Below, one piece after another: positions 7,927 through 42,671 of a DNA stretch of 57,842 bases. The translations under genes and the position numbers were made by a program. The DNA comes from Planctomycetota bacterium (GTDB lineage: Bacteria; Planctomycetota; Planctomycetia; Pirellulales; Pirellulaceae), in contig JAPLNM010000020.1 of assembly GCA_026692845.1 (NCBI GenBank), forward strand, positions 1-57,842, in the 5' to 3' direction. The notes beneath the pieces are model-generated. The model was not told where the DNA came from, made no database searches, and saw only the letters and a program-made list of their open reading frames with translations. The first letter of the stretch is position 1. Each line of letters begins with the position of its first letter.

Positions 7927-10248
7927 ATGGCTGGCATGTGGGATCGACTGAAAAACGCTTTACTAAGCACGGTGTCCAAGAGAGATCGGAACTCTTCGCA
8001 GCGAAGGCAAGTTCGACGTAGGATCCGTATGGAACTCCTGGAAGGTCGCCAACTCATGGCCGCCGATATCCAGGGAATCGTCTTTCACGATGTGAACAAC
8101 GACGGAACAGTCGAGGTAGGTGAAACCCGATTGAATGGGGTTCCTGTCCAACTGTTCTTGGACAACGGCGATGGTGTTTTCGGTAGCTCTGACACCCTGA
8201 AATCCTCGTCGATTTCGGCAGCCAATGGGGCGTATTCCCTGAACGCAGAAGCCGCCGGCACTTATTTTGTCGTCCAGAACTCCGAACCTGCCGGTTTTGT
8301 ACAGCGTCAGAACCAACGCGTTCAAAAGATCACACTCGCGTCGGGTGACCTTGCGATTTCCGACAAGCTCTTGCTCGACACATTCAATACCACCCAGCAG
8401 GTGGTCAATGCGAGTTTCCCAGGAGCCACGCCCAACTCCTCATCCCTCGCCGCACCTGAAGCGATCGGCGGCGAACGCGATGTTTTTGTCGATGCAACCT
8501 CTGGTTCCGTCAGCGTTTCTGCCAACGGGATCCCAAAACCAGGTGAACTGGTTTTCGACGTCGGCGGTGGTGCGAACGGAAAACGGATCGTGAGCTATGA
8601 CGGTACCGACGGAAACTCTAATCTAAGCCCCAATGGTCTGGGCAACTTGGACCTGACGGCCGCTGGTGCAGCCAATGCATTCCGCTTCCAGATCGGTGGA
8701 GAAGCCGGGACGCGATTGATTATCCGAGTCCACAGCGGTTCGAATGTTTCGACACGCGAGGTAGCGATCCCGACGACCGCCGGTGCAAATCCCACGTCGG
8801 ATCTGATTGTGCCGTTCAGCGATTTTTCGAGCACGGCTGGATCCGGTGCGAATTTCTCAGCCATCGGTGCGATTGAACTCGAAGTGACTGGACCGGATGC
8901 GGCGGATGCAATCATCAACGCATTTAGCACCATCGGACCGACGACGCGAATTGTCAACATTGCGAACTTGACTGCCATGGCCATCGGCAATCAAGTCTTC
9001 GCGGACAAAAACAACAACGGAATCTTCGATAACACCGGTGCTCAACCCGAGCTCGGCGTTCCGAACGTCCAACTGCAAGTTTTCGAAGACACCAACGGTG
9101 ACGGGATCTATAGCCCAGGTATCGATCAACAAGCGGTCAATTCACTCGGTGTCCTTCGCACCGCTACGACCAACACCGCTGGGGTTTATGGTTTTAGTCC
9201 AATCCCTCAAGGGAATTACTTTGTTGTGATTCCAGGCTCGCAATTTTCTGCAGGATCTCCGGCCGCAGGCTACGTCGTGAGTTCTGTGCTCCCCTCAGGC
9301 GTCTTGAATAACGCCAACACCGCAGTTCAATTTGTCGGCGGAGGGGTGGTCACCAAACGGGTTGTTCTTGTACCTCAGAATGGACCGCTCACCGATGGGG
9401 ACAACGATCCGAACACCGACAACTCGATCGATATCGGTCTGAATCCGAACTTTGATCTTGCCATCGAGAAATTCGGGCCCGCCACGTCCACCGAGGGCAG
9501 CACGATCACCTACACGCTCAAGGCGATCAACAACAGCCCGATCGATGCGAACGAAGTGGTCCTCAGCGATAACCTTCCCGATGGTTTGCGTGTGATCAGC
9601 GCCTCGCTGAACAACGCTTTTGTCAGCGTGCCGGCTTCGGCCGTCGACAACAACCCATCGAACCCAGACAACATCAGTTTCAACATCGGAAGCCTCGCAG
9701 CTCGGACGAGCCAAAGCAACATTCAAATCGTCGCTGCGATCCTACCGGGAACCGCGGTTTCCTCGCTGATCAATTCGGCGGTAATCAGCACGAGTGACTC
9801 ATCGGTCGCCGAATCGAACTTGAACAATAACACTGCCCAGGTCGAGACGATCCTGGCCGCTCCGCTTGTTTCTTTTACCGGACGGATCTACGAGGATCGC
9901 AACCAAAATGGAGTCAGCGACCTCTCAGATCCAGGAATTGTCGGGGCGAGCGTCATGCTTACGGGCACTCCCTTTGCAGGACTTCCACCGGTCTCCTTGT
10001 CGACCTTCAGCGGTCAGAATGGTATCTACGCATTCAACAATATCCAGCAGGGGAACTACAAGGTCGAAGTCGCCCAACCGGCAGACTTTAGCTTCCGTGC
10101 CTCGAACCCTGGAACGACTCAAGGAACCCCAGGTTTCAATCAGATTTCCAACATCAACGTCAATGCGAACTCGTCGCTGAACAACATCGGCTTTACCAAA
10201 GCATTCAGCAAACGGCTGTTCCTGGCTTCGTCCTCACCGCTGTCCTAG
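7927..10248 (+). CDS. Surface protein with SdrD_B-like and DUF11 domains
   Basis: The ATG at 7927 starts a 773-residue extracellular protein. Residues 30-46 (RRRIRMELLEGRQLMAA) match the LEPR-like motif found near the start of many planctomycete exported proteins. SdrD_B-like (Cna-B type) domains begin near residues 47, 352 and 648, each with an Asp/Asn-rich loop (DVNNDGTVE, DKNNNGIFD, DRNQNGVSD) of the calcium-binding kind. Residues 506-645 form a DUF11 beta-sandwich (DLAIEKFGPATSTEGSTITY ... LPDGL). The middle (130-340) is an all-beta region I cannot name. The C-terminus ends FSKRLFLASSSPLS, with no LPXTG, PEP-CTERM or dockerin. Longer starts at TTG 7852 or ATG 7870 would begin inside a strong hairpin, so I rejected them. 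A structural or adhesive surface role is inferred. Confidence 0.85.
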   Translation: MAGMWDRLKNALLSTVSKRDRNSSQRRQVRRRIRMELLEGRQLMAADIQGIVFHDVNNDGTVEVGETRLNGVPVQLFLDNGDGVFGSSDTLKSSSISAANGAYSLNAEAAGTYFVVQNSEPAGFVQRQNQRVQKITLASGDLAISDKLLLDTFNTTQQVVNASFPGATPNSSSLAAPEAIGGERDVFVDATSGSVSVSANGIPKPGELVFDVGGGANGKRIVSYDGTDGNSNLSPNGLGNLDLTAAGAANAFRFQIGGEAGTRLIIRVHSGSNVSTREVAIPTTAGANPTSDLIVPFSDFSSTAGSGANFSAIGAIELEVTGPDAADAIINAFSTIGPTTRIVNIANLTAMAIGNQVFADKNNNGIFDNTGAQPELGVPNVQLQVFEDTNGDGIYSPGIDQQAVNSLGVLRTATTNTAGVYGFSPIPQGNYFVVIPGSQFSAGSPAAGYVVSSVLPSGVLNNANTAVQFVGGGVVTKRVVLVPQNGPLTDGDNDPNTDNSIDIGLNPNFDLAIEKFGPATSTEGSTITYTLKAINNSPIDANEVVLSDNLPDGLRVISASLNNAFVSVPASAVDNNPSNPDNISFNIGSLAARTSQSNIQIVAAILPGTAVSSLINSAVISTSDSSVAESNLNNNTAQVETILAAPLVSFTGRIYEDRNQNGVSDLSDPGIVGASVMLTGTPFAGLPPVSLSTFSGQNGIYAFNNIQQGNYKVEVAQPADFSFRASNPGTTQGTPGFNQISNINVNANSSLNNIGFTKAFSKRLFLASSSPLS

Positions 10249-34816: not shown

Positions 34817-36088
34817 CTAGACGAATCGCAGTAGCCCATAGCGTTTTTTGCCAGCTCGCAAAATCAGGTACTTGCCAGCTAGATCCGATTCGCTTAGGAC
34901 CCGATCGAATGCCGTGACTTTCTGGTTGTTCAGGTAAGCTGCACCTTCAGTCACCGTGCGTCGCGCTTCGCTCTTGCTGTTGGCTAGTCCTGCAGTGCAA
35001 AGCGCATCGATGATCCCGAGACCTTGGACAAGCCGATCGCGAGGAACCTCTTGGCTCGGAACATCCTCGAAAATCGTATTGAGCTGGTCTTGGGTCAATT
35101 CGGTAATGTCGGCACCAAAGAGCAGACGCGTCGCATGCTGCGCCGATTGCACCTTGTCCTGGCCATGCACAAGCCGAGTCAATGATTCGGCAAGCCGAGT
35201 CTGAGCCGCTCGCTCTTGTGGCTTGTCTTGCACCTGATTCTCTAGCTCTCGATATTCATCCTGAGAAACATCGGATAGGAAACGCAGAGTCATCATCACA
35301 TCGGCATCGGCTACATTGATAAAGTATTGATAGAACTCGAAGGGACTGGTCCTCTGGGCCGATAACCATACGGCCCCCTTCTCGGTCTTGCCCATCTTCT
35401 TGCCATCGCTGGTCGTCAGCAGCGGACAGGTCAACCCAAAGAGCGGGCGACTGAGCATGCGCCTTCCAAGATCGATCCCGGCGGTGATGTTACCCCACTG
35501 ATCGCTACCCCCAATCTGCAACAAGCAGTCGTGATGCTTGGCAAGATACACAAAGTCATACGCTTGGAGCAGCATGTAGCTGAACTCGGTGTAACTGAGT
35601 CCGCTGTCGGTTCGCTCCAAGCGACTTCTCACCGAATCCTTCGTCAGCATGACGTTGATTGGGAAGTTTTTGCCGACATCCCTGAGGAAGTCCAAGAATG
35701 AAAAGCCCTGCATCCAGTCGAGATTATTGACCAGGATCGCTGCATTCGGACCTGTGAAATCCAAGAAATGGCCAAGCTGCTGGCGGATTCCAGCGACATT
35801 CCTTGCCAACGATTCCTTCGAAAGCAACTGCCGTTCGTCGGTCTTGCCACTCGGATCCCCGATCATCCCGGTCGCTCCGCCGACAAGCGCTACGGGACGA
35901 TGACCAGCTTGCTGAAACCGCCTGAGCATCATCAGCGGCAAGAGCGATCCGACATGCAAGGAGTCCGCCGTCGGATCGAATCCCGCATAGACGATCGTCG
36001 GCTTGCTAAGCTGCTCACCGAGTTCCTTTGGATCGGTGGACTGATGGATCAAGCCTCGCCATTGGAGTTCATCAAGAATCGACTTCAT
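34817..36088 (-). CDS. tyrS: Tyrosyl-tRNA synthetase
   Basis: Class I synthetase of 423 residues. The HIGH-like motif is ADSLHVGSLLPLM and the KMSKS-like loop is KMGKTEKGAVWL. The tyrosine-binding stretch FSYMLLQAYDFVYLAKHHDCLLQIGGSDQWGNI is fully conserved. The last 70 residues form an S4 RNA-binding domain (LCTAGLANSKSEARRTVTEGAAYLNNQKV). Its ATG at 36088 follows the exported-protein gene by 20 bases. Confidence 0.97.
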   Translation of the reverse strand: MKSILDELQWRGLIHQSTDPKELGEQLSKPTIVYAGFDPTADSLHVGSLLPLMMLRRFQQAGHRPVALVGGATGMIGDPSGKTDERQLLSKESLARNVAGIRQQLGHFLDFTGPNAAILVNNLDWMQGFSFLDFLRDVGKNFPINVMLTKDSVRSRLERTDSGLSYTEFSYMLLQAYDFVYLAKHHDCLLQIGGSDQWGNITAGIDLGRRMLSRPLFGLTCPLLTTSDGKKMGKTEKGAVWLSAQRTSPFEFYQYFINVADADVMMTLRFLSDVSQDEYRELENQVQDKPQERAAQTRLAESLTRLVHGQDKVQSAQHATRLLFGADITELTQDQLNTIFEDVPSQEVPRDRLVQGLGIIDALCTAGLANSKSEARRTVTEGAAYLNNQKVTAFDRVLSESDLAGKYLILRAGKKRYGLLRFV

Positions 36089-36108: not shown

Positions 36109-37596
36109 CTAAAACTGGATTTTGTATTTTTCGGTCATGGTCCGTCGCATGTCGGCGATCGACTGTTCTAACCGCGCCATCAACTCCTTAAAAGACGTGT
36201 TTCCTTGGGCCTGCCCCAAGCTATAGTATTTCATGGGCGAATTCGGATCGACGAAGTTCCCTCCGTAGCTGCCATAACCCCCGTAGCCATAACCCATACC
36301 GGCCATCGTCCCTGCTCCAGTGGCCGTCGAGAAGCCGCTTGTTCCGGCATCGGCTGCGACCGCTGCAGCACCTTGGGAAATATTGGTCAACTGCATCGAC
36401 ATCGAATTGTTTCGCAACGATTTGGCCACCTCGGCACCGTACATGACCATCTGCGGGTCGACATCAAGCGTCGGCATTTCATCGATCCGATTGGCCATGT
36501 TCCCATTCCACTGGGCTCGCTCCCCGGTGTTGTTGGCCGAGTAATCTCGTACGCGATGGGCGATGTTGATGATCTTCTTAAAGTACTCGCGGGTATTCTC
36601 CGCAATGACGCTCGGGCTCGTTTGCCCAGCGGTCTGTCCGGCGGTCTGTCCGGCGGTCTGTCCGGCGGGACTGTCCGACTTGGTCACTCCACTGCTGGCC
36701 CGGTGCACGGTGAACATACCGAGCAGATCGTCCAAGGTTTCTGAGGCGATCGGGCCGGTAAACTCAAGCGTCTTACCCTCGGAGACCGCACGCATGCTCC
36801 ATTGAGCATACTCGTCGAGTTGCATCCCGCGGGCTGTCAGGACCTCTGCGAAAAATGCTTTGGCTACCGGGGTGAGCTCGGTCGGAGCGCTCTGGAAATC
36901 GATCAGGACCGTTGCCTGCAACGCATCCTTGGCAACCGAAATGGTAATTCCCTGGACAGCTGCCAGCGACTTGGCGATCGCCTCGATGTTTTTTCCCTGC
37001 AGCGACTTGGACTGCAAAAGCCTCTCCCCCATCACACCGACCGACACGATATCCTCAAGATCCACCGCGATGCTGACCGATTGCGGGTCGGTCAGCCGAC
37101 CGGCAACTTGCTGCAAATAGCTGCTGATGACGTTGCTCCGGTCTTTCTTGAGCCACTGTCCTACGAACTTGCGATCCGCAGGCCGAACGATCGAAACGAC
37201 GTTGTCAGCCAAGGGGATCAAATACATTTGATTGGGGGTCCAAACAATCGACCGCCCCTGCAAAGTATCGACATACCCTCCCTCTCGCTGGGCGATCGAT
37301 TCGGCGGTCGCGATCTTCTCAACGGCCGCATAACCGATCTCCCAGTCGGGCTGAAAGGACTTGAAATCCAATTCTGCAGCGATCCGAACCCGGAGCACAT
37401 TTCCTGGCAAGTCTTCGTGAAGGGGGGAGCCGAGGGTCAGTTTCCTCAACGCAACCATATCTCCTTGAACAATCGCATTGGCCGTTTTTGGGCAAGATCG
37501 AAGCACATCGAGCATCGTTGGCTCGCCACACCACCCTTGGACGACCGCCAACGAACTTGCCAAGCACATCGCACCAGTCAACCATGAAAATCGCAT
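36109..37596 (-). CDS. Exported protein with Gly/Tyr-rich tail and AGQT repeats
   Basis: A 495-residue protein with a signal peptide (WLTGAMCLASSLAVVQGWCG). A globular half (about 25-315) contains GYVDTLQGRSIVWTPNQMYLIP and RPADRKFVGQWL, with no catalytic signature that I can name. AGQT is repeated near residues 312-325 and is encoded by a 12-bp repeat. The C-terminal part has a glycine/tyrosine-rich stretch (GMGYGYGGYGSYGGNF) and ends with an amphipathic helix. It precedes tyrS and the glycosyltransferase, with gaps of 20 bases or less, so it may share their transcript. Unknown, probably planctomycete-specific. Confidence 0.78.
   Translation of the reverse strand: MRFSWLTGAMCLASSLAVVQGWCGEPTMLDVLRSCPKTANAIVQGDMVALRKLTLGSPLHEDLPGNVLRVRIAAELDFKSFQPDWEIGYAAVEKIATAESIAQREGGYVDTLQGRSIVWTPNQMYLIPLADNVVSIVRPADRKFVGQWLKKDRSNVISSYLQQVAGRLTDPQSVSIAVDLEDIVSVGVMGERLLQSKSLQGKNIEAIAKSLAAVQGITISVAKDALQATVLIDFQSAPTELTPVAKAFFAEVLTARGMQLDEYAQWSMRAVSEGKTLEFTGPIASETLDDLLGMFTVHRASSGVTKSDSPAGQTAGQTAGQTAGQTSPSVIAENTREYFKKIINIAHRVRDYSANNTGERAQWNGNMANRIDEMPTLDVDPQMVMYGAEVAKSLRNNSMSMQLTNISQGAAAVAADAGTSGFSTATGAGTMAGMGYGYGGYGSYGGNFVDPNSPMKYYSLGQAQGNTSFKELMARLEQSIADMRRTMTEKYKIQF
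36629..36668. repeat. 12-bp tandem repeat coding AGQT
   Basis: Three full units and a partial unit of gcggtctgtccg, in frame within the exported protein, giving four AGQT copies with perfect identity at DNA level. Confidence 0.85.
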
Positions 37597-37997: not shown

Positions 37998-40337
37998 ATG
38001 CAAGCGATCCTCAAACGCATCCAGCATCTTTTTCATTCCGCCTTTGGATCCACCAGCCTCCTTGAACGCACCAAGGACATCCAGCAACAGGCCAACGCGG
38101 TCGCAAAACACCGGGAACTCGATCACCTGCGTCACGAAGTCGGTGACCTCCTAGCGAGCACTTTACAGCTTTGCAATGAGTGCGGGTGGGATCCAAACGA
38201 ACTGGTCTGCGAAACCCTCGATCGAATCGAACAACGTGTCGATGTCTACAAAAAACTCAACCGAAAACAACGCGTAGGCTTACTGCGCGCCGATTTTGAT
38301 CCCATCGATAACCATCACCTTGCGATGATCCAAACGGCGATCCAATCCGACGGCGTGGACGAAGTCTGGTTGATGCCCTCCTTTGAAACTCCCAACGCAC
38401 CACTCGGCGCTTCGACCCTAGACCGAGTGGCCATGTGTCGACTGGCCGTCGAGACAATCCAACAGGCCCATGTATTTACCTACGAACAGGAAAATGAATT
38501 TTGCGGTGATGCTTACCACCTGATCAAGCGAATCCTAGGGGAGACCTCCTTTCGCGATCGTATCGAGTTTTGCCTGATCCTCGAACGCTCGGTAGCGGAT
38601 CAAATGCACCGCTCCCATGCGAGCGAGTCCCACGCAATCGACCGAATCGAAGATGCCATTGCGATCTTGGTTGTCGAGTCTAAACAGCCCAAACCCGCTC
38701 CGGACAACGCTTGGTTTCGCACTCCACCCCACCGCTGGCTCTCACTGCCAAGCGATGGCACTGGTATCTCGACACCCTCCGAAATCCGAGGCCTTCTGGA
38801 AAAAGGGGACCAAGCGGCTTGGTCCTATCTGCCGCAATCGGTCGGTAACTACATCCGTGACAAACACCTCTATTTGCGATCCGAAAACCTAGCGTCGCGC
38901 GCACTTCCCAAGCAACGAATTGCCGTATTCTCCGAATCGTTCTCTCCGCCTACCCTTCTGCAATGCGAACAAATCCGGCGCTTGCTCGAGCATGGCTTCG
39001 ATCGGGTCATCATCCATCCACGCGGAGTGCGATCCGACCGCGGGGAGCACGAAGTCGCACTGCCTCGCCATCGCGCCGCACTGGTCTCTTTGGCCTTTCA
39101 AAATATCCCAAACGTCGACATCAACTACGATGACATCAGCAACGGTACGAACTCCCCATTGTTCGACCTGACCTACCGATACGAATCGATGGGAGAAGTC
39201 TGGCTCGTCGTCCCACAATCCGATGCGAAACGCGCGGCTTCAAATCAACCCTCTGCCATCGAAGCACTCGATCAGGGACAACGCCTATGGAAAGAAGCCC
39301 GATTCGCTCTTTTGGACGATTCCACTGGCCCCACCTCGGAAAACCTCACCTCGGAAAACAACGCTCAAAGCGCACCTGCGGTCCCCTCGGAACTGCTGCC
39401 TCCCTTCCATCGTCACATCCGAATCCCCCAAGGCCCCTCGCCCGCAGACCTCCGAAGCGAGATCTTTCACGGCAAAGCGATCGACGAATACCTCGATCGA
39501 GATGTCTGCAACTACGTCCAACGCCACCGACTCTTTGTCCCTGGAACCCCCGGACGCGACGCGATCTTCCAAGTCCCCCGCCCCGAACTGTTTATCATTC
39601 ATGACGAACGCAATCCACGTGCGGTCGAACTGGCGCAAGCCTACGCAAAGTACCAATCGAGCCAACCGAACCTGATCCTCGTCATCGGGGGGGATGGGAC
39701 CATGCTCAAAGCCATTCGAGAACATTGGCGCAGACGACTACCTTTCATTGGCCTAAACGCCGGTCACCTGGGCTTCCTTATGAACGCCTCATTGCCAGCG
39801 AATCTCGAAAGCATCGATCTGATCTCGCAATCCCTGCCGCTGCTGCGAGTCGATGTCCGCTACCCGGACGGGAAAACCGCCATGCACCTAGCCTACGGAG
39901 ATGCCTGGATCGAAAGAGCCGAAGGCCAAGCGGCGTGGTTGCAAGTCCGCGTCAACGGCGAAATCCAACTCCAAAAAGTCGTCGGCGATGGGATGCTCAT
40001 CGCCACTGCTGCAGGCTCGTCGGCCTACGCCCGTGCCATGGGGGCCGTTCCTGTCCCGCTCGATTCGCAGTCTCTGATCCTCGCCGGTTCGAACATCTTT
40101 CAACCCCGATTCTGGAAACCGATGAATCTGCCCGGCACTAGCCAAATCACCCTGACCAGCCTCGATACTCGCGGCAAACGTCCTCTGAGAGCCTTCGTCG
40201 ATGGACAAACACTCGGAATTGTTCAGGAAATCTCCGCCAAGCAGAGCCTAACGGCCGCCGTCGAATTGGCCTTCACCAAAGAATACGACCCCTCGACAAA
40301 ACTCCTCAAATCGATGTTCCCAAGCGACCTGAGCTGA
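37998..40337 (+). CDS. Multi-domain NAD kinase with MazG-like and NadD-like modules
   Basis: From the ATG at 37998 a 779-residue protein is read. Residues 10-88 look MazG-like (HRELDHLRHEVGDLLASTL, an ExxD-containing helix pair). Residues 92-293 resemble NadD: RVGLLRADFDPIDNHHLAM, with the HxGH histidines degenerate, and ISTPSEIRGLLEKGDQAAW...VGNYIRDKHLY at its end. Residues 307-513 repeat the pattern more degenerately (RIAVFSESFSPPTLL...; SPADLRSEIFHGK...CNYVQRHRLF). Residues 530-775 are an NAD kinase: LVIGGDGTML (564-570), then VGDGMLIATAAGSSAYARA (662-680, the TxxGSxAY motif). NAD kinase makes NADP from NAD; the fused modules suggest a link to NAD supply or nucleotide clean-up. The earlier frame starts at a TTG inside a repeat. 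Whether the NadD-like modules are active is unknown. Confidence 0.88.
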   Translation: MQAILKRIQHLFHSAFGSTSLLERTKDIQQQANAVAKHRELDHLRHEVGDLLASTLQLCNECGWDPNELVCETLDRIEQRVDVYKKLNRKQRVGLLRADFDPIDNHHLAMIQTAIQSDGVDEVWLMPSFETPNAPLGASTLDRVAMCRLAVETIQQAHVFTYEQENEFCGDAYHLIKRILGETSFRDRIEFCLILERSVADQMHRSHASESHAIDRIEDAIAILVVESKQPKPAPDNAWFRTPPHRWLSLPSDGTGISTPSEIRGLLEKGDQAAWSYLPQSVGNYIRDKHLYLRSENLASRALPKQRIAVFSESFSPPTLLQCEQIRRLLEHGFDRVIIHPRGVRSDRGEHEVALPRHRAALVSLAFQNIPNVDINYDDISNGTNSPLFDLTYRYESMGEVWLVVPQSDAKRAASNQPSAIEALDQGQRLWKEARFALLDDSTGPTSENLTSENNAQSAPAVPSELLPPFHRHIRIPQGPSPADLRSEIFHGKAIDEYLDRDVCNYVQRHRLFVPGTPGRDAIFQVPRPELFIIHDERNPRAVELAQAYAKYQSSQPNLILVIGGDGTMLKAIREHWRRRLPFIGLNAGHLGFLMNASLPANLESIDLISQSLPLLRVDVRYPDGKTAMHLAYGDAWIERAEGQAAWLQVRVNGEIQLQKVVGDGMLIATAAGSSAYARAMGAVPVPLDSQSLILAGSNIFQPRFWKPMNLPGTSQITLTSLDTRGKRPLRAFVDGQTLGIVQEISAKQSLTAAVELAFTKEYDPSTKLLKSMFPSDLS

Positions 40338-40437: not shown

Positions 40438-41883
40438 CTACTTACCCGTTTGGGTCTTTTGACCGGCCACCTCTGGCTCGTACTTGACCTCGGTCAGCTC
40501 AATTCCTTTGAAAGGAAGTACATCGGGTGTAATCTGCACCCCGGTGGATACTTTCAATGGGAAAGGCCCCCCGACATCGTAGGTCAGCTCGACAAAACTA
40601 GCCGTCCAGCCCGCTTGTTCCGGTGCCGGTCCAGCGACGTAGTTCCCCTCGGCGTCGGCCTTGAGCGCGGTGCTCTCGAACGCGGGACCGATCGTCTGGA
40701 GCCTAAAGTCGCGAGCCGTCGGGTTGTTGGCCCGCCAAAGTACCACCTCGGTGGGCTTGGTCTTAGGCACCACGCGAATCGATCCGTCCTTCTGGAAGGT
40801 CCATGAATACTGAGGGGATTTTTTGCCCGAAGAGATCATGCTGTAATAGGCTGCAATCGATTGGACCGCATCGGTATTCTTCAATCCGTGATCCCCGTTG
40901 GGGACATACCTCAGGAGCTTGTCCCCCTGAAGTTCGTCGTAGTAGAACTTCGAGGAATCCGGGAGGAAAAACTGATCACCACTGGCGTTGACGATGTACT
41001 TGGGCAACGTCAATCGTTCTTTGTAGTAATAAGGATCAACAATTCGGTAGAGTTCGTCCATGCGGGGGTGATCGAACCGTTGGAGGATCTTGTGCTGGTA
41101 GTAATTCCCGATCGCTTCGGACCAGAACCCATAAGCTTCGGCGTGGTTTTGTAGCGACGATCGAGCGTTGGCCACATCGATGACGATCGGAACGATCGCT
41201 TCGATGCGATTGTCGGCAGCCCCGGCCATCCAAGTCGTCCAACCTCGCTTGGAACCTCCACCTACGATGAATTTGTTTACCTTGCGTTTGCCCCCGGCCT
41301 CGCTGGCCGAAAACTCGGTGATGCAATCCATCGCGCGCACGACGCTCTTGACCATCGGCAGTCGGGGTAGCCAAGTCGCATCGCCGGTCTCGAGGAACTG
41401 AGCCCAGGAGTAGCCGATCAAATCGTCTTCAACCCGAGGAACGCCATCGTTGTGGAAGACCAAGGGTTGGTTCGGGATGTTCTTTAGCTCTGCGACTGCC
41501 CCACCGGTGCTCGCTGCAATCGCTCCGGTGATCGAATCTGGACCTTTGGGCTGTGGGCTGGTGTGGCTTCCGCCACCGATCATCAAGAATACCTTATCGG
41601 TCGTGAGCTTGGCCGGCACGCTCAGCACGAGCCAGTGCTCCCACAAGGGCCGATCGACTTCCTGCTCGGTTCGCCAACGCTGCGAAGTCAAGCGAATCGC
41701 GTAGGTCGTCAGGTTTCCAGTCTTGATCGTCTCGACGAGCGACCACTGATAAGCGTCATCGGGCTTGGCGACATAGGCATCCAAGGGGGTGAGTTTACTG
41801 CCCGCCGGCGGTTCTGCCTGCGCGATCGAAAACACCGAACCAAAAACTATCGCCATAAGCGTTACATCAAACAATCGTTTCAT
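40438..41883 (-). CDS. PhoPQ-activated pathogenicity-related (PqaA-like) protein
   Basis: A 481-residue secreted protein with an N-terminal signal (RLFDVTLMAIVFGSVFSIAQA). The family markers are VFLMIGGGSHTSP, GVPRVEDDLIGYSWAQFLET, NKFIVGGGSKRGWTTWMAGAADNRI (GxSKRG, with the serine of an alpha/beta hydrolase elbow) and YIVNASGDQFFLPDSS. These define the PhoPQ-activated pathogenicity-related family of alpha/beta hydrolases, whose substrate is not established. The ATG at 41883 removes a six-residue N-extension. Its 3' end faces the NAD kinase gene 100 bp away. It is a common family in Planctomycetota. Confidence 0.92.
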   Translation of the reverse strand: MKRLFDVTLMAIVFGSVFSIAQAEPPAGSKLTPLDAYVAKPDDAYQWSLVETIKTGNLTTYAIRLTSQRWRTEQEVDRPLWEHWLVLSVPAKLTTDKVFLMIGGGSHTSPQPKGPDSITGAIAASTGGAVAELKNIPNQPLVFHNDGVPRVEDDLIGYSWAQFLETGDATWLPRLPMVKSVVRAMDCITEFSASEAGGKRKVNKFIVGGGSKRGWTTWMAGAADNRIEAIVPIVIDVANARSSLQNHAEAYGFWSEAIGNYYQHKILQRFDHPRMDELYRIVDPYYYKERLTLPKYIVNASGDQFFLPDSSKFYYDELQGDKLLRYVPNGDHGLKNTDAVQSIAAYYSMISSGKKSPQYSWTFQKDGSIRVVPKTKPTEVVLWRANNPTARDFRLQTIGPAFESTALKADAEGNYVAGPAPEQAGWTASFVELTYDVGGPFPLKVSTGVQITPDVLPFKGIELTEVKYEPEVAGQKTQTGK

Positions 41884-42221
<338 letters not shown>

Positions 42222-42671
42222 CTACTTGGTCAGGGCAAACGCAGGCAACTCCTTGGTCGACGAAGTGATCTCGGACTTCAAGCCCGAAGCCCCTTTCTTG
42301 GCGTACTTGCCATTGAGAAGATCTGGGCCTGGGTCTCCGAGCCCTTGCATTTTCTGAGCAGCGGTCGGTTGGACCGAGGGATCAGGCCACACCACCGTGA
42401 CATCATAAGCCCCTACGGGGACCCCTACTTTGGCACTGGTGGCCAATTGGAATTTCCCGTTCTCATCGCTCGTCGCTGCAGGGATGAGTTTCATCTCTTT
42501 GCCCGTCGGATGAAAAATCAAGGTAGCGCCGTTGGCCGGTTTGCCATCGACCGTTACGCTGCCAGTGACTTGCACCAATGAGGGACCTCCACTACCGCAA
42601 CCGGTCAATGCGATTCCGATGGAGGTAAGCAGTACGAAGAAACGATTGAACGAAGAGATACGTGCCAACAT
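42222..42671 (-). CDS. Lipoprotein with transthyretin/carboxypeptidase-regulatory-like domain
   Basis: A 149-residue lipoprotein: the signal peptide FFVLLTSIGIALTGC ends in a lipobox cysteine (LTGC|GSGG). A compact beta-sandwich (residues 33-95: VQVTGSVTVDGKPANGATLIFHP ... SDENGKFQLATS ... GAYDVTVVW) is typical of carboxypeptidase-regulatory-like domains common in planctomycetes. The ATG at 42671 has AGGAG seven bases upstream; a TTG two codons earlier is possible but weaker. Function unknown. The repeat array 42767-43028 lies upstream of it. Confidence 0.85.
   Translation of the reverse strand: MLARISSFNRFFVLLTSIGIALTGCGSGGPSLVQVTGSVTVDGKPANGATLIFHPTGKEMKLIPAATSDENGKFQLATSAKVGVPVGAYDVTVVWPDPSVQPTAAQKMQGLGDPGPDLLNGKYAKKGASGLKSEITSSTKELPAFALTK

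Follow-up and report, generated by a model that had tools for sequence, protein, structure and literature searches.

A planctomycete NAD kinase carrying a MazG-like and two decayed NadD-like modules as a candidate regulatory front

The window analyzed here, the 57,842-nucleotide contig JAPLNM010000020.1 of a Planctomycetota bacterium of the family Pirellulaceae (genome G000 in the following, where other G and L numbers label the genomes and loci compared, and g and f numbers genera and families), contains a gene that joins a MazG-like helical domain, two NadD-like domains, and an NAD kinase in a single chain. On balance, the product is probably a housekeeping NAD kinase whose front, recycled mostly from enzymes handling nicotinate mononucleotide (NaMN), would regulate it or serve as a scaffold. 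NAD kinase is essential in bacteria, and the arrangement is a new NAD kinase architecture built from known families, not a new enzyme class. The frame runs from ATG to TGA over 779 codons without interruption, and its ATG start is supported by the counterpart in G397 (L047, 76% identical), because the open frame there starts one codon ahead of the matching methionine.

The domain order (Table 1) had been proposed in a first-pass annotation from the letters alone and is borne out by profile, fold, and tree evidence. The C-terminal NAD kinase was recognized correctly: residues 517-779 matched PRK04761 (NF003406) with E=1.6e-43, at 148.8 of 211 bits and thus under the equivalog cut-off, and the kinase domain reached 40.5 bits against PF01513 (cut-off 25.5). 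The cut-off of PF20143 was missed (11.8 of 23.7 bits), as were the equivalog cut-offs of NCBIfam. The GGDGT motif lies at residues 564-568, with GGDG invariant in 14 of 14 aligned rows and the threonine present in at least 90%, and GSSAY is present at 673-677. The best Foldseek match of the kinase fold was Listeria NADK1 (3v7u, 1.3e-17, TMt 0.75), and the best 50 matches listed for the full-length model (predicted local distance difference test score (pLDDT) 81, predicted template modeling score (pTM) 0.58) were NAD/NADH kinase structures or an integrative NADK2 model. A PF01513 search of the 96.2% complete draft genome found no other NAD kinase; the single further match, below the cut-off on contig C99, is a YegS-type lipid kinase (DAGK_cat, 2.8e-23) and was rejected as a second NAD kinase. 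Because the protein is the sole candidate in G000, we infer that it phosphorylates NAD to NADP.

The three modules ahead of the kinase differ in how readily they are recognized. Residues 10-88 scored 22.4 bits against Pfam MazG (PF03819, cut-off 22) when taken alone and 17.1 bits within the whole protein, and the family profile of this front matched Escherichia coli MazG (3cra) with 5.4e-6. Residues 92-293, the first NadD-like copy, matched the full profile of TIGR00482 (E=1.7e-15; 57.6 of 112.45 bits, under the equivalog cut-off), and the family profile matched NadD 8aih with 1.9e-30. The range 92-293 and the kinase region match the families originally proposed for them, and the match of 10-88 to MazG is borderline. 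Residues 298-516, the second copy, gave only a weak match by themselves (TIGR00482 2.4e-4, no Pfam match) and needed a family profile or a fold for recognition. As a 29-row family profile, copy 2 matched the full length of Bacillus subtilis NadD (1kam) with 2.3e-14, it aligned profile to profile with copy 1 at 99.4% probability, and its predicted structure (pLDDT 89.5, pTM 0.86) had NadD 8aih as top Foldseek match (3.5e-12, TMt 0.79); together, these results rule out a chance match to NadD.

In the window's species, both NadD-like copies lack catalytic residues, as motif comparison confirmed. The first-pass annotation had described the HxGH histidines as altered in both copies, which holds fully for copy 2 and for copy 1 only with respect to the first histidine. 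Motif 1 of copy 1 reads RADFDPIDNHH (97-107), so that the two glycines and the first histidine are lost and the second histidine (residue 107) is kept; the equivalent of T/HxGH is DNHH, with D at the first position and H for G, and is no longer the motif. The GxD and tryptophan regions of copy 1 read ERS and HRS, and GxD and W are thus lost as well; motif 2 is ISTPSEIR. In the available part of one study, Asp-109 is assigned to the active site of E. coli NadD (PMC1249556). Motif 1 of copy 2 is SESFSPPTLLQ (312-322), with TLLQ in place of T/HxGH and both histidines lost, and R486 of motif 2 is kept. In the MazG-like front, D50 and E61 are invariant in 10 of 10 planctomycete rows, and by reading the ExxE pair is absent from all ten, so that the metal-site motif, which we take to be EExxE...ExxD, is not present. 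With these NadD and MazG residues lost, regulatory rather than catalytic modules, as the first-pass annotation had suspected, would be the better reading for the window's species.

Table 1. Modules of the four-module gene, its neighbors, and related loci
Feature	Position	Strand	Basis or remark
Whole gene: MazG-like + NadD-like 1 + NadD-like 2 + NAD kinase	37998..40337	+	779 residues plus stop
MazG-like helical front, residues 1-87	37998..38258	+	PF03819 22.4 bits as fragment; family profile to 3cra
NadD-like copy 1, residues 91-293	38268..38876	+	TIGR00482; family profile to NadD 8aih
NadD-like copy 2, residues 305-513	38910..39536	+	family profile to 1kam; predicted fold
NAD kinase domain, residues 530-779	39585..40334	+	PF01513, PRK04761, Foldseek
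tyrS	34817-36088	opposite to the four-module gene	upstream neighbor
Open reading frame without Pfam match	36109-37596	opposite to the four-module gene	upstream neighbor
PhoPQ-related gene	40438-41901	opposite to the four-module gene	downstream neighbor
CobT-like fronted loci, genus g372 of f115	L139, L140, L141, L145, L147, L148, L152, L153, L155		frames before copy 2
Viral MazG-NadD loci	L192 4986-10029; L193 3999-5864; L171 2001-4149; L179 5992-6912		

The four-module chain is indeed rare, as had been expected. It was found in nine distinct genomes, among which a Schlesneria metagenome-assembled genome (MAG; L039), apparently identical to G597 and G725, was counted once: 7 of 27 genomes in the genus sample and 5 of 199 in the family sample carry it, one of the latter in another genus (G536), in addition to the Schlesneria MAG. 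The MazG front was detected at E<=0.001 in 15 of the 392 genomes of the phylum sample, strongly only in G000, G302, and G118; in the class sample (n=397), it was strong in three genomes and weak in one. The combination of copy 2 and kinase is more widespread in the class, with 38 of 397 genomes including G000 (near-whole profile, E<1e-150), 32 of them in family f115; in the phylum sample, G081 and G171 were the only matches at E<1e-80 besides G000. Among plasmid records, 59 matched the two-module protein that G456 encodes; no match extended over 80% of its length, and the ten that were listed are confined to the kinase part. In one two-module gene (L067 906-2406, G436), the sequence is broken within copy 2 into two open frames, and the gene upstream of the two-module gene of G171 (L005 2877-4376) combines an adenosine-deaminase-like stretch, below the Pfam cut-off, with a Nudix domain in one product.

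In the genomes checked, the fused gene is mostly the only NAD kinase over the cut-off. Counting PF01513 matches over the cut-off (matches near or below it occur in G397, G399, G405, G417, G585, G561, and others), seven of the nine four-module genomes have no second one; the exceptions are the Schlesneria MAG, which also has an ordinary kinase, and G417, which has a second fused gene. The same applies to 31 of 33 checked fused-type genomes of the class (exceptions G680 and G599), and G171 and G546 carry the fused gene alongside an ordinary kinase. In three genomes of the window's genus (G392, G410, and G416), an ordinary NAD kinase takes the place of the fused gene.

Trees separate the modules by origin. 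In a tree of 65 NadD-type domains, copy 1 together with free MazG-NadD proteins (support 97/91), copy 2 (100/100), and free NadD (96/96) formed three groups; as the two copies fall into separate groups, tandem duplication as their source was rejected. All fused kinases and those of g380 formed one group (100/99) apart from 27 ordinary kinases. Within it, the four-module genes were one group (96/91) with the two-module genes of G405 and G417 nested inside, and this nesting suggests that these two genes lost their front. One row of the kinase tree, L145, is misplaced as an artefact of a fragment covering 16% of the columns.

Other lineages carry different fronts ahead of copy 2. In 9 of 20 f115 loci (L139-L158), a CobT-like domain precedes copy 2 in frame, and in three more loci such sequence is partial or lies in other frames. 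The nine frames that the CobT profile found are also those from which it was made, and the independent checks are therefore those by Pfam, NCBIfam, and phmmer: Pfam DBI_PRT (PF02277) was over its cut-off of 22.6 in all six candidates given (77-136 bits), two proteins scored 64.6 and 91.6 of 319.3 bits against TIGR03160, far under the equivalog cut-off, and one domain matched CobT 1wx1 by phmmer with 5.8e-17. The CobT-like part has diverged, and the equivalent of GEGTGA reads xEGxx or xDGxx. In three g385 loci (L157, L158, and L161), copy 2 is immediately preceded by a MazG-like piece, which was significant with only the MazG profile in L161 but not in the other two.

In the mechanism that we propose, a single fusion in planctomycetes would have joined copy 2 to an NAD kinase of the PRK04761 type, and individual lineages would later have added modules ahead of copy 2, mostly from NaMN-using enzymes, namely MazG-NadD here and CobT-like domains elsewhere. 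In the window's clade, the front modules would no longer make nicotinate adenine dinucleotide (NaAD); they would serve to keep the kinase in an assembly, to bind a pyridine nucleotide (NaMN, NaAD, NAD, or NADP), or both, and NADP production would thereby track NAD-precursor supply or the NADP level. The origin of most recruited modules from NaMN-using enzymes (NadD and CobT) suggests NaMN or its products as the ligand of the front. NadD structures with bound NADP exist, according to the titles of 4ybr and 5das.

An alternative, which we consider unlikely although it deserves serious attention, is that the front consists of passive remnants: NadD and MazG units that decayed given a free intact NadD and now serve only the folding or packing of the kinase, with no ligand bound. 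The motif losses in all three front modules are in line with this, and the rates of change of the modules bear on it directly. We determined ratios of non-synonymous to synonymous substitution (dN/dS) by the Nei-Gojobori method for three close pairs, wider pairs being saturated at silent sites, and obtained 0.05-0.11 for the MazG front, 0.14-0.18 for copy 1, 0.11-0.16 for copy 2, and 0.02-0.04 for the kinase. Free NadD from the same genomes gave 0.09-0.18 in four pairs, so that the range of the decayed copies (0.11-0.18) overlaps with that of the free enzyme, and in the pair G399/G398 the fused copies were even slower (0.11-0.14 vs 0.18). The MazG front was more constrained than either NadD-like copy in three of three pairs, in one of them narrowly. 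By these ratios, the decayed modules are clearly held by purifying selection, somewhat less than or about equal to that on a working NadD, which argues against mere remnants, as does the placement of different fronts at the same point in other lineages.

Several observations nevertheless weigh against a regulatory or scaffolding front, or against details of that reading. Both copies change more rapidly than the kinase, which is also in line with passive remnants, and in the two pairs that include G000 they outpace free NadD as well (0.13-0.18 vs 0.09-0.10). Three g380 genomes (G608, G654, and G773) have kinase-only genes nested within the fused clade, and the front is therefore dispensable there, in agreement with passive remnants; the kinase tree itself carries a long-branch warning. 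The usual NadD tryptophan aligns with 'tkWE' of copy 2, which the window's clade no longer has; W431, which is invariant and had been considered as this tryptophan, aligns at another place and was dropped; copy 2 of the window's clade may for this reason bind nothing. Of the 29 copy-2 rows, 23 retain the second histidine, and the six without it all come from four-module genes, of which the set has eight; copy 2 of G456, in addition, is over the Pfam cut-off with 41.4 bits. In other lineages, copy 2 may accordingly have remained catalytic. In the kinase, the NE motif, which we take to be a hallmark of NAD kinases, is GD at 634-635, with D invariant in the 14-row alignment and N not. Finally, the genome in which this kinase is the sole candidate is a 96.2% complete draft in 182 contigs.

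Still less probable for the window's species is a working multifunctional enzyme, a single chain in which one or both NadD-like copies would form NaAD and the kinase NADP. The best arguments for it come from relatives. G396, G417a, the Schlesneria MAG, and G536 have an intact-looking copy 1, with GGAFDPIHxGH in the latter two, GGAFDPIHVSH in the former two, and SS[TS]xxR in all; against the TIGR00482 cut-off of 112.45 bits, G396 is over (117.6), and the Schlesneria MAG (110.4), G417 (100.3), and G536 (98.6) are under. Moreover, a NadE gene lies directly upstream of the four-module gene in the Schlesneria MAG (L039 1774-3834), and viral MazG-NadD genes occur near PncB or NadE genes, as described below. 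Judged by their motifs, the chains of these four relatives may be bifunctional, with NaMN adenylyltransferase and NAD kinase activities. In the window's clade, however, copy 1 is decayed (G000, G397, G398, G399, and G407): it lacks GG, GxD, and W, and the first histidine in four of five members, G397 having both histidines, and copy 2 lacks both. Furthermore, free NadD was over the cut-off in all 22 distinct genomes searched (24 genome entries); that of G000, on contig C18, has an intact HxGH and 182.3 bits. The suggestion that one chain combines working NAD synthesis, nucleotide clean-up, and NAD phosphorylation is therefore not supported in that form, given the absent ExxE, the lost NadD residues, and the free intact NadD. 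G000 also has a CoaD-like gene on contig C143 (CTP_transf_like, 92.5 bits; CoaD by reading).

The pattern of intact-looking and decayed forms looks like a stepwise decay, with copy 2 affected first and, in the window's clade, copy 1 later; because the rows share ancestry, they do not represent independent events. In the intact-looking pair (G417a and G396), copy 1 is 70% identical and the kinase 77%, and in the decayed clade (G000 vs G407), the values are 49% and 86%.

That the gene is an artefact of assembly or of chance motif matches can be dismissed despite the 182-contig draft, because an equivalent four-module frame is present in nine distinct genomes (39-88% identity) and the modules are backed by profiles, fold, and trees. 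The nine genomes, together with two upstream neighbors that are conserved in L033-L036, also exclude the assembly error joining two genes that the first pass had allowed for.

The four-module gene stands alone between genes on the opposite strand, and the conserved neighbors in L033-L036 are tyrS and the frame without Pfam match, in the same position. An open reading frame listed for 42072-42581 of the window contains an (ST)n run and, by reading, looks less like a gene than like a short tandem repeat.

Outside the fusions, MazG-NadD occurs as a gene by itself in G302 (L006), in G118 (L007), and in viruses; cellular genomes outside the phylum were searched with the whole window protein only. 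Viral contigs contained 18 MazG-NadD loci, 12 of them with both domains in one frame (nine different sequences), and two records of a 735-kb phage had 52.8% identity over the G302 protein. By reading, ten different viral sequences have ExxEL in nine, EExGD in nine, (T/H)xGH in eight, and SS(T/S)xxR in ten cases. Copy 1 and the viral NadD domains formed a joint group with moderate support (88/83), in which the eight fused copy-1 rows were one group (91/99); in the same tree, G302 was among the viral rows and G118 outside. Of six loci whose neighbors were read, three have NAD genes nearby: L192 carries an isochorismatase-family gene (nicotinamidase by reading) and a nicotinate phosphoribosyltransferase gene (PncB; PF04095, 2.6e-63), L193 an NAD synthase gene (NadE; PF02540, 2.6e-45), and L171 an isochorismatase-family gene, and none was seen by reading in L179, L172, and L194. 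PHROGs had no family for the whole MazG-NadD among four proteins tested. The profile of copy 2 and kinase found 12 viral loci, all with the kinase part only (L180-L191, contigs up to 545 kb). L194, L195, and L196 (5102-5872) share one NadD-type gene, the open frame of which aligns with the MazG-NadD model from position 52 onward only, and in L194 a second CTP_transf_like gene follows (9172-9732; CoaD-like by reading).

In their available parts, a survey of phage NAD metabolism that names NadV, NadM, and NadR (PMC9503650) and another that describes the same enzyme kinds (PMC7824862) have no occurrence of NadD. Relative to the available content of these surveys, the position of viral MazG-NadD genes close to those for PncB or NadE suggests that NAD salvage by deamidation exists beside the nicotinamide routes. 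As a tentative and rather speculative extension, NadD and CobT domains could be interchangeable sensors of NaMN, NaAD, or NADP that control the sole NAD kinase of planctomycetes as a pseudoenzyme front, with MazG-NadD exchanged with large phages for NAD salvage cassettes, possibly against NAD-depleting defence. Natural forms of the protein range from the bare kinase and the two-module form to those fronted by CobT, MazG, or MazG-NadD, the last with either an intact-looking or a decayed copy 1; they allow a module-by-module comparison of NADP production and offer a readable case of enzyme domains becoming pseudoenzymes stepwise.

Fusions of NadD-like domain and NAD kinase, of CobT-like, NadD-like, and kinase domains, or of MazG and NadD were not found, by title or start of abstract, among the open-licence papers listed by searches that were not all aimed at such fusions, and fusion terms do not occur in PMC6675116. 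As far as the available parts of the surveys go, known NAD-enzyme fusions are NadM-Nudix and NadR (PMC9503650); PMC7824862 describes these kinds too but does not use the names. Like the four-module protein, these two and the bifunctional NADP phosphatase/NAD kinase PRK14076 join modules of NAD metabolism in one chain, but, judged from those parts, none joins a NadD-type domain to NAD kinase, nor MazG or CobT to either. The front shares with the all-alpha NTP pyrophosphohydrolase MazG (PF03819; 3cra) the helices of the second half, the GDLL region, and D50, but it is a single small domain without the ExxE pair. CobT, the NaMN:5,6-dimethylbenzimidazole phosphoribosyltransferase (PF02277; 1wx1), resembles the front of the g372 relatives, in diverged form, and is likewise of a NaMN-using enzyme type; it is not part of the window's protein. 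Both middle modules are like NadD (TIGR00482; 1kam, 8aih) by profile, copy 2 also by fold, and both keep the arginine of the SSTxxR motif, but they differ by lost active-site residues, by belonging to two separate lineages, and by their fusion to a kinase. The C-terminal part, in turn, resembles NadK of the PRK04761 type in its profile match, GGDGT motif, and fold, and differs from it by a score below the equivalog level, GD for NE, and about 520 additional N-terminal residues.

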